From IMG/VR virus record IMGVR_UViG_3300044846_001112, positions 1 to 33,873 of that record: DNA of 33,873 nucleotides. The stretch is one strand, 5' to 3'. Both the position numbers and the translations under genes were made by a program. Numbering within the stretch: position 1 is the stretch's first letter; each line of letters starts with the position of its first letter. The notes beneath the pieces are model-generated. The model was not told where the DNA came from, did no database searches, and saw only the letters and a list, made by a program, of their open reading frames with translations. Shown here in pieces: positions 4,658-8,466 of the stretch. This DNA comes from a virus.

Positions 4658-4733
4658 TGGCTCCTCGGGCTGGGCTTGAACCAGCGACCCTACGATTAAC
4701 AGTCGTATGCTCTACCAACTGAGCTACCGAGGA
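4658..4733 (-). tRNA. tRNA-Asn (anticodon GTT)
   Basis: The minus strand folds into a complete 76-base cloverleaf with an encoded CCA. The acceptor stem TCCTCGG/CCGAGGA is 7 bp perfect, the D stem is GCTC/GAGC, the anticodon stem is TACGA/TCGTA around CTGTTAA, and the T stem is GCTGG/CCAGC around TTCAAGC. The anticodon GTT reads AAC and AAU. It lies between the exonuclease gene and the 4583 promoter in the leftward block. No integrase is present, so it is more likely a translation aid than an attachment site remnant. Confidence 0.97.
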
Positions 4734-7303: not shown

Positions 7304-7332
7304 ATATTAAGCATACTAAAACACTATGTCAA
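7304..7332 (-). promoter_or_regulatory. Strong leftward early promoter
   Basis: On the minus strand, a perfect -35 hexamer TTGACA (7332-7327) is followed, after exactly 17 bases, by TAATAT (7309-7304). The operator-like repeat overlaps the expected start point. It should drive the SSB-like, peptide, HTH and exonuclease genes. Confidence 0.75.
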
Positions 7333-7338
7333 TACCCT

Positions 7339-7366
7339 TTGCAAAATATATTTTTTAGACTATACT
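7339..7366 (+). promoter_or_regulatory. Rightward promoter for the Cro-like gene
   Basis: TTGCAA (7339-7344) and TATACT (7361-7366) are 16 bases apart. The -35 elements of this and the leftward promoter are only six bases from each other, so the two polymerases would compete. The -10 ends ten bases before the ATG at 7377, which predicts an mRNA with almost no leader. Confidence 0.65.
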
Positions 7367-7376
7367 GGGCTTAATT

Positions 7377-7604
7377 ATGAAATTAACTGACTCACAAATT
7401 GTAGACCTTTTAGGTGGCACAACTGCCGTTGCCAAGCTATGCAAAGTAAGCCCACCAGCCGTTGCTCAATGGAAAACTAAAGGTATTCCATACGACAAAA
7501 TGGTGTTTTTGGGTGCTGAATTGGAGCAGAAAAGCTGTGGCTTGATGAGCAGAAAAACGATGTTTCCTAAAGTTTATAAATTTATTTGGCCTGAACTGGA
7601 ATAA
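7377..7604 (+). CDS. Cro/YdaS-like regulator
   Basis: The protein has 75 residues. MKLTDSQIVDLLGGTTAVAK is followed by LCKVSPPAVAQWKTKGIPYD, which has the Cro/YdaS helix-turn-helix spacing (helix 2 GGTTAVAKLCK, turn, recognition helix SPPAVAQWKTKG). The rest is short, with no peptidase or dimerisation domain as in CI. There is no Shine-Dalgarno and the promoter predicts a near-leaderless message, as known for lambda cI from PRM. It sits at a divergent promoter pair, the classical place for an early switch. With no integrase present it more likely times early gene shut-off than lysogeny. Confidence 0.8.
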   Translation: MKLTDSQIVDLLGGTTAVAKLCKVSPPAVAQWKTKGIPYDKMVFLGAELEQKSCGLMSRKTMFPKVYKFIWPELE

Positions 7605-7615
7605 TACGGTATGAT
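7586..7615 (+). promoter_or_regulatory. Candidate promoter for the structured RNA / replication gene
   Basis: TTGGCC (7586-7591) and TATGAT (7610-7615) are separated by 18 bases and overlap the end of the Cro-like gene. A start about seven bases later would begin the RNA at roughly 7622, just before its first pairing segment. The -35 is imperfect, so the call is moderate. Confidence 0.4.
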
Positions 7616-7621
7616 TTGCAC

Positions 7622-7739
7622 ATCTCTTGTCAGGGGATTAAACTTAGTGTGGCTTCACATGATACTCAGTAGGTTGCTAAGACCTATCCTGACAGACCCC
7701 TTAAAAAAGGGTTGGGTATCAGGTGAAGCCATTTTTTTT
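7622..7739 (+). ncRNA. Structured leader or small RNA ending in a terminator
   Basis: The closing stem pairs GGCTTCAC (7651-7658) with GTGAAGCC (7723-7730) and, past a 2x2 bulge, GATACTCA (7661-7668) with 7713-7720. Inside are two hairpins: TAGGT/ACCTA (7670-7686) and CCCTT/AAGGG (7698-7711). Eight T residues follow (7732-7739). The 5' segment TGTCAGG (7628-7634) can also pair with CCTGACA (7688-7694), giving a pseudoknot or a competing fold. The next bases are the ribosome site and ATG of the replication gene, so this may be an attenuator, a riboregulator or a free small RNA. I do not recognise a known family. Confidence 0.6.
7651..7739 (+). terminator. Intrinsic terminator formed by the leader RNA
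   Basis: A long, mostly paired stem enclosing two sub-hairpins ends in GTGAAGCC, then A and eight T. It is unusual in that two inner hairpins are enclosed and the 3' arm lies directly before the Shine-Dalgarno of the replication gene. Efficient termination here would cut off that gene unless polymerase reads through. Confidence 0.6.
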
Positions 7740-7749
7740 GAAGGCTTTT

Positions 7750-8466
7750 ATGAAACTGATTCCTAAAAATTGGGACAACTTTCAGCATTACAAACATCGT
7801 TCCCCACCTTGGATAAAACTTCACAAAAACTTGCTTGATGACATGGCATATCAACGCTTGCCTGTTGCTAGCAAAGCTCTAGCACCGATGCTTTGGTTGC
7901 TAGCAAGTGAATCGCATGACGGAGTTATCCACAGGACACCTGAAGAAATAGCGTTTAGGCTTAGAATGACTGAAAAAGAGGTCATTAGTGCCATTAAACC
8001 TTTGATTGATAACGGCTTTTTTATTGAAGATAGCAATATGCTAGCAACAAGCTTGCAAGGTGCTACTACAGAGACAGAGAAGAGACAGAGTAGAGTAGAG
8101 ACAGAGAAAGAGACAGAGACACCTAGCGGTGTTACTGAGTCTGTTTTTAAAGACTACTTAGAAGTTCGCAAAACCAAAAAAGCCAAATGGTCTGAAACTG
8201 CACTCAAAGGTTTAATCCGAGAATCTGAAAAGGCTGGGATTTCACTACAAGATGCTATGGAGCTCTGCTGTGCTAGAGGTTGGGTTGGTTTCAAGGCTGA
8301 ATGGATTAAAGACCAACAGCCTACAAACAACGACAAAGCTTGGATGTTTAGCGATGCTGGTATTGTTGCCAAAGCTTCCGAACTTGGCATACATAGCATT
8401 GGCCTTTCATACAAAGAACTCAAAGACAAATGCTTGCTGATAATGGCTAAAAAGGCGATGGCATGA
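7750..8466 (+). CDS. DnaD/DnaT-like phage replication protein
   Basis: I chose the ATG at 7750 (238 residues) with GAAGG five bases upstream; an upstream in-frame GTG at 7723 lies within the terminator stem. The N-terminal winged-helix region runs from FQHYKHRSPPWIKLHKNLLD to SHDGVIHRTPEEIAFRLRMT and IKPLIDNGFFI, as in phage replication initiators that recruit the host helicase. A threonine/glutamate linker (TETEKRQSRVETEKETET) encoded by iteron-like repeats joins it to a helical C-terminal domain ending in KAWMFSDAGIVAKASELGI. The gene ends in ATGA overlap with the next. It likely starts replication with the host DnaB machinery. Confidence 0.75.
   Translation: MKLIPKNWDNFQHYKHRSPPWIKLHKNLLDDMAYQRLPVASKALAPMLWLLASESHDGVIHRTPEEIAFRLRMTEKEVISAIKPLIDNGFFIEDSNMLATSLQGATTETEKRQSRVETEKETETPSGVTESVFKDYLEVRKTKKAKWSETALKGLIRESEKAGISLQDAMELCCARGWVGFKAEWIKDQQPTNNDKAWMFSDAGIVAKASELGIHSIGLSYKELKDKCLLIMAKKAMA
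8070..8118 (+). repeat. Four iteron-like direct repeats inside the replication gene
   Basis: The decamer AGAGACAGAG occurs exactly at 8070-8079, 8081-8090, 8097-8106 and 8109-8118, at intervals of 11, 16 and 12 bases. The block is a purine-only strand apart from C and T spacers. Lambdoid phages often place their origin as iterons within the initiator gene, so this is a candidate origin; it could also simply encode the TE-rich linker. Confidence 0.5.

Follow-up and report, generated by a model that had tools for sequence, protein, structure and literature searches.

The window analysed here is a stretch of 33,873 nucleotides from a freshwater phage (IMG/VR record IMGVR_UViG_3300044846_001112, positions 1 to 33,873), in which a folded RNA of ~118 nt lies at 7622-7739, just 5' of a DNA-replication gene. 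The gene on its upstream side (7377..7604, plus strand) encodes a Cro/YdaS-like regulator (Pfam P22_Cro, E=2.8e-07; PHROG transcriptional repressor). The 3' end of this gene overlaps the promoter of the RNA, a sigma-70-like site on the plus strand (7586..7615) with TTGGCC at 7586-7591 and TATGAT at 7610-7615, 18 nt apart, for which the predicted start is ~7622. The downstream gene (7750..8466, plus strand, ATG at 7750) encodes a DnaD-like or phage O-like replication protein (PHROG replication protein, E=4.4e-42; O-like, E=1.2e-18). Divergent promoter-like sites are present at 7304-7366, between the leftward genes and cro, a layout that resembles the lambda immunity region. Of those leftward genes that were scanned, none resembled a CI-like repressor, and no PF00589 integrase was found in the window. 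The leftward region also carries a tRNA gene (69.8 bits, 4661-4733, minus strand), as do the related loci L084 and L085.

The RNA, all parts of which are on the plus strand, begins with the hairpin H0 (7622..7638, arms ATCTC at 7622-7626 and GGGAT at 7634-7638), whose loop is segment A (UUGUCAGG, 7627..7634). It is followed by segment B (CUUAGUG, or CTTAGTG in DNA, 7643..7649) and by the closing stem P1. This stem consists of an outer block of 8 bp, P1a (GGCTTCAC at 7651..7658 with GTGAAGCC at 7723-7730), and an inner block of 9 bp, P1b (TGATACTCA at 7660..7668 with TGGGTATCA at 7713-7721), with one mismatch (A7659, G7722) between them; its 3' arms together span 7713..7730. Enclosed by P1 are hairpin H1 (7670..7686, UAGGU/ACCUA), whose loop B' (TGCTAAG, 7675-7681) is complementary to B, the linker A' (CCUGACAG, 7688..7695), which is complementary to A and joins the two inner hairpins, and hairpin H2 (7696..7712), which stacks directly on P1b. 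A run of eight T (7732..7739) marks the predicted RNA 3' end. A preliminary description of this segment had listed the promoter, the stems, the eight T, the TGTCAGG/CCTGACA complementarity and the ATG, and all are located where it placed them. Its two-part closing stem is present, with the second block now extended to 9 bp, one mismatch away from the first. The segment TGTCAGG (7628-7634) does pair with CCTGACA (7688-7694), and is the loop of a hairpin of its own. The folding energy of the window RNA is -43.9 kcal/mol (z = -2.67, 4 of 200 shuffles equally good), which by itself is moderately unusual; the decisive evidence is comparative.

Searches by protein homology to the downstream DnaD-like and upstream Cro-like genes recovered 87 loci, and a similar element is recognisable after cro in several of them (L009, L022, L082, L084, L085 and others). 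A sequence pattern based on the 3' half of the RNA retrieved 25 contigs, and two more patterns retrieved at least 120 contigs each. With a covariance model built from 19 sequences (R1), members were then found in most of the collected loci, among them L019, L021 and L044, recruited via protein homology and missed by the RNA patterns, and also in L431 and L434. Against circularity, we built a second model (R2) without the window and without L019. R2 finds the window RNA at 55.3 bits (E=3.9e-13, where E-values of these covariance models are rough), with one other weak match within the window (E=0.29), and it scores L019 at 58.8, L044 at 86.4, L431 at 89.3 and L434 at 84.6 bits. The structured RNA that had been proposed from the window is therefore real, as shown by this window-free match and by the covariation described below. 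In total, at least 138 distinct members were collected, almost entirely from uncultured phages. Model matches on the antisense strand (17-36 bits) were rejected as echoes of the inverted stem rather than second genes.

Exactly one sense copy is present per genome in 36 of 36 whole virus contigs. This bears on the similarity in position to HK022 put and to lambda nutR-tR1, which also lie after cro and before the replication genes on an early transcript. An element of this type would modify the polymerase to pass later terminators, and the RNA does follow a Cro-like gene in the window and its relatives and places a structured segment ahead of a terminator. However, a put-like second copy was sought in the 36 contigs and not found, in conflict with one element per early operon; many members are not behind cro; the terminator lies within the structure, the closing stem itself being the putative terminator; and no boxA/boxB or put hairpins were identified. 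We consider this explanation extremely improbable.

The preliminary description matched the RNA to no known family, and this holds for Rfam 15: segment 7610-7752 has no match at the gathering threshold, the best matches at E<=5 reaching 13-15 bits against cut-offs of 77-191. The members in ten other loci likewise have no Rfam match, except for a chance 25-bit miRNA. The RNA at 7622-7739 belongs to a family that Rfam 15 does not contain. When the window segment and four other members were compared by BLASTN with named phages, only two uncultured Manatee Spring records were recovered, both carrying the same element. In isolates with related DnaD genes (the Limnohabitans phage DC33, the Iodobacter phage PLPE and the Cylindrospermopsis phage Cr-LKS3), the RNA was not found near that gene. 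A loose pattern scan of genome contigs yielded 0 loci that survived an added stem and T-run filter.

The preliminary description proposed covariation in the paired arms as the test of this structure, and the family passes it strongly. Among 95 non-redundant members and 39 pairs, both pseudoknots included, both partners have changed in 34 pairs, and 97.7% of the cells are standard pairs, compared with ~40% when the partners are slid. Cells with double changes number 554 in these members, against 128 +/- 9 in shuffles and 46-98 with slid partners; the alignment was fitted to the nested structure and not to the two pseudoknots. Double changes occur at all pairs of P1a, and P1b is likewise supported by covariation. 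The pairs of H0 are standard in 100% of the 95 members (double changes in three of four), and all four modelled pairs show double changes in both H1 (100% paired) and H2 (98.9% paired). G-U outnumbers A-C by 171 to 6 in the paired positions, and this excess indicates that the plus-strand RNA is the acting molecule.

Both long-range pairings are conserved by compensation. At least seven matched versions of A and A' occur: TTGGCGG/CCGCCAA (its frequency is biased because one recruiting pattern fixed A and A'), TTGACGG/CCGTCAA, TTGGCAG/CTGCCAA, TTGGTGG/CCACCAA, TTGGAGG/CCTCCAA, TTGGAAG(G)/CCTTCCA and the window type, the other versions coming from scans in which A and A' were not fixed. For B and B', which were fixed in no scan, there are 108 distinct combinations, and the mean longest complement is 5.91, compared with 3.99 +/- 0.08 when partners are permuted. 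The pseudoknot or alternative fold anticipated between A and A' is thus maintained across the family, and it is accompanied by a second long-range pairing (7643-7649 with 7675-7681) that had been overlooked.

The geometry of the RNA is nearly invariant. In 136 of 138 members, P1 is built as 8 pairs, a 1x1 mismatch and 9 pairs. The modelled H0 loop has six nucleotides, H0 contains an invariant CUUG of U-turn type, a single G precedes H1, no base separates H2 from P1b in any member, and the spacers are constant. Such constancy exceeds what a generic terminator needs and indicates a defined three-dimensional fold. A compact, knotted fold of invariant geometry between a promoter and a gene start might be expected of a leader that senses a ligand or is bound by a protein, either riboswitch-like or as an attenuator. 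Yet the constant unpaired positions amount to essentially one G and one T, with no ligand pocket in evidence of the kind that defines a riboswitch core, and the unrelated genes downstream have no metabolite in common. A sensing leader is therefore very unlikely.

The promoter ahead of the RNA and the T-run at its end, both noted in the window, are also supported across relatives. In 85 of 137 members a -10 box lies 12-13 nt ahead of H0. The combined promoter score of 137 relatives is 8.46, compared with 6.90 +/- 0.06 for shuffled sequences; the transcript should therefore start at the foot of H0. At the other end, the first four tail positions are T in at least 132 of the 137-138 members. The G+C-rich P1 (17 bp) and the eight T stand between promoter and ATG as in an attenuator, and a standard scan for consensus terminators misses them owing to the long, branched loop that P1 encloses. 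Judged from these features, intrinsic termination at the predicted 3' end (7739) is likely. In 118 of 134 members, P1 is separated from the next ATG or GTG by 15-20 nt, with a mode of 18-19, which leaves no space for a further promoter. By this layout, the RNA is a unit that runs from promoter to T-run and at once the leader directly 5' of the following gene; both a terminated RNA and a readthrough product are therefore expected.

A promoter and T-run of its own are also what would be expected of a stand-alone small RNA that acts in trans on a target in the host or the phage, with leak-through or upstream promoters providing expression of the next gene. A hairpin at the 5' end and a rigid fold point to a stable product, which is present in a single copy per genome and precedes downstream genes of varying identity. 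Moreover, in L141, L143 and L157 a hairpin with a T-rich tail upstream of the RNA, read by eye as the intrinsic terminator of the upstream gene, implies that these RNAs are separately transcribed. Against this, the conserved positions are nearly all paired and covarying, and with so few constant unpaired bases no conserved target-pairing seed is visible. A same-strand gene follows in 136 of 138 members, its start usually 15-20 nt past P1, an arrangement needless for a free small RNA. On balance we regard the trans-acting RNA as unlikely, though it is the main competitor.

The genes that follow the RNA are mostly replication genes of unrelated families and sometimes homing endonucleases; they include DnaD-like, DUF1376 primosomal, Lin1244-like, O-like initiator, ParB-like and HNH or GIY-YIG endonuclease genes. 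The placement ahead of a replication gene that was described for the window therefore stands, but not the tie to one replication protein, as the same RNA heads many unrelated gene families. In some members a gene for a small protein comes next and then the replication genes. A lineage richer in G+C has a gene for a ~212-residue protein, then the RNA, frequently an HNH gene or another short one, and finally a gene for a long DNA-polymerase-like protein, which is a probable phage DNA polymerase; in L155 the RNA directly precedes this long gene, whose sole Pfam match is weak and RNase H-like. HNH, NUMOD4 and GIY-YIG homing endonuclease genes follow the RNA directly, at an unchanged distance, in L044 (558-1178, minus strand), L089, L116, L093, L119, L138 and L171, and their recurrence suggests that these genes insert preferentially at the 3' end of the RNA or move together with it. 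In many members (such as L206, L204 and L348), a ~55-residue protein with C-terminal CRTC/CKIC...LR motifs is encoded directly 5' of the RNA and may be another conserved part of the slot.

Tyrosine integrase (PF00589, the integrase type covered) was detected in three of 37 carriers. Among ~770 betaproteobacterial genomes sampled, one has a family member, and the genome searches gave a single prophage-like match (L431). Given the rarity of PF00589 and the frequency of about 1 in 770 genomes, carriers are mostly not ordinary integrase-bearing prophages, which disfavours a role in prophage immunity.

This is relevant to the resemblance to P4 CI and P1/P7 C4 RNAs, in which a phage leader ahead of replication or antirepressor genes has internal segments complementary to its own flanks. 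P4 CI RNA acts through pairing with seqA and seqC (PMC4825925). The self-complementarity of this type, conserved by compensation, is present in the window family as A/A' and B/B'. By analogy, released RNAs could act in trans, using their A' and B' to bind A and B of leaders that are still being transcribed, so that copy number sets replication-gene expression. The loop-to-line complementarity within one transcript, as in P4 seqA/CI, and the invariant CUUG of H0 are consistent with such self-targeting, as is the finding that 88 of 146 core-identical pairs of members differ in B/B' while nearly all remain complementary. IsrK of Gifsy-1 offers a precedent for an RNA that is both small RNA and leader, as one promoter yields a terminated small RNA and, via terminator readthrough, a downstream phage mRNA (PMC4825925). 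The pair of products is shared with the window family, where it is proposed, but the fold, genes and targets differ, and IsrK acts on a downstream short ORF (PMC4825925). However, P4 CI and C4 function in the immunity of lysogens or plasmids and arise by processing of a longer transcript, while the window family has its own promoter and T-run, carriers that mostly lack an integrase, and no match to the Rfam C4 model. With 34 of 37 carriers, including the window, without PF00589 and about one in 770 betaproteobacterial genomes positive, lysogenic immunity is unlikely. Pairing in cis accounts for the covariation without a trans step. B and B' also vary no more than other parts (0.40 differences per nt, compared with 0.41 in H0 and 0.34 in P1b), and we rejected the idea that they are a hypervariable immunity determinant. 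Trans self-targeting is thus improbable.

We favour instead the reading that the ~118-nt structured leader heads replication genes and regulates them via conditional intrinsic termination, at a probability of roughly 0.47. More generally, the RNA probably controls the timing or strength of phage replication gene expression. We infer the switch itself: that transcription ends at the U-run, that B-B' and P1a compete, and that a trigger decides between them. Transcription starting at 7622 would first produce H0, B, the 5' arm of the closing stem, H1 and A', and before the 3' arm emerges A could pair with A' and B with B'. Once the 3' arm is out, H2 and P1b would zip up. If P1a, the eight pairs beside the U-run, closed too, the polymerase would terminate at 7739 and release a stable RNA of ~118 nt. 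The B-B' helix would oppose closure of P1a, because B adjoins the 5' arm of P1a and B' sits at the far end of P1, ~18 layers off; this steric argument is simple length reasoning, under which B-B' and P1b could coexist. With the pseudoknots kept, P1a would stay open and transcription would read through into the replication genes; with the pseudoknots lost, it would terminate. Anything that holds the pseudoknots (polymerase speed, a protein or a second RNA) would permit readthrough.

Minimum free energy folding, which takes no account of pseudoknots, is compatible with this order of events. Partial transcripts ending at A' form A-A' in 132 of 138 members and A-A' together with B-B' in 89, and full-length RNAs form P1 in 137 of 138. 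P1 and the long-range pairings have zero nucleotides in common, and a single pseudoknotted fold without switching therefore fits the covariation equally well. Feedback by any single gene product does not fit so varied a set of downstream genes.

The same slot, after a promoter and before the same replication gene family, is occupied by int-alpA (RF02996) RNAs in DnaD-type loci. We know of no function for the int-alpA family. Both RNAs have a two-part closing stem around one or more inner hairpins and an internal loop complementary to another part of the transcript. They differ in that the complementary sites of int-alpA are downstream, one near the ribosome site, while those of the window family are upstream, in H0 and B; int-alpA usually lacks a strong T-run, and there is no sequence or model match between the two. 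The RF02996 model matches L039 and L062 but not the window, L009, L082, L084 or L085, and the common slot does not make the window RNA a member of int-alpA.

Related replication genes in L024-L080 are preceded by RNAs that can be aligned with int-alpA (for example L033:302-419, L035:508-625 and L024:2886-3003). In these, the internal loop is complementary to two copies of a downstream segment, typically ~20 and ~7 nt before the ATG, such as CCACTT with AAGTGG twice, TTATCAC with GTGATAA twice, and CACCTT with AAGGTG and AAGGT. The best complement averages 5.5, compared with 3.9 +/- 0.34 when permuted, and the second 4.1, compared with 1.9 +/- 0.36. The anatomy of int-alpA is, as far as the sequences reveal it, self-targeting and like that of C4 and P4 CI. 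L044 has both kinds of RNA, a member of the window family heading a leftward HNH gene and an int-alpA-alignable RNA heading a rightward replication gene.

In L001 and L081, a different, int-alpA-like RNA lies between genes whose Cro and DnaD products are 99% and 97% identical to those of the window; the RNA was assigned by eye from shared motifs, because the RF02996 model gives no match there. That unrelated RNAs, flanked by near-identical genes, share the slot makes the slot itself look like a general point of control, whose function can be tested directly through these natural swaps between phages. As a possible wider reading, we tentatively propose a new class of protein-free molecular switch. 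In it, the two loop-to-line pseudoknots would control whether the lower half of a branched terminator closes, and thereby how strongly the replication genes are expressed, in a large set of freshwater phages that are mostly virulent; in sister phages, an unrelated RNA of int-alpA type would play the same role in mirror image. Few cases of RNA control of the replication switch are known in virulent phages, and this family is a probable addition to them. It is a new and well-supported RNA family with a double pseudoknot, strictly placed at the head of viral replication genes, and it also provides a lead on the uncharacterised int-alpA.

Other RNAs also occur in this position. In L087 (3270-3389), the Rfam Betaproteobacteria-1 RNA (RF02932) follows a related Cro gene in the same slot, which brings the number of unrelated RNA families found there to at least three. 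A fourth kind of leader, a short hairpin after a -10 box (CTACTCAATAGCTTTTGAGTAG followed by a hairpin like GCGAGATGCTC), is present upstream of the MLEFPS gene in the DnaD-type relatives L051, L055, L072 and L076.
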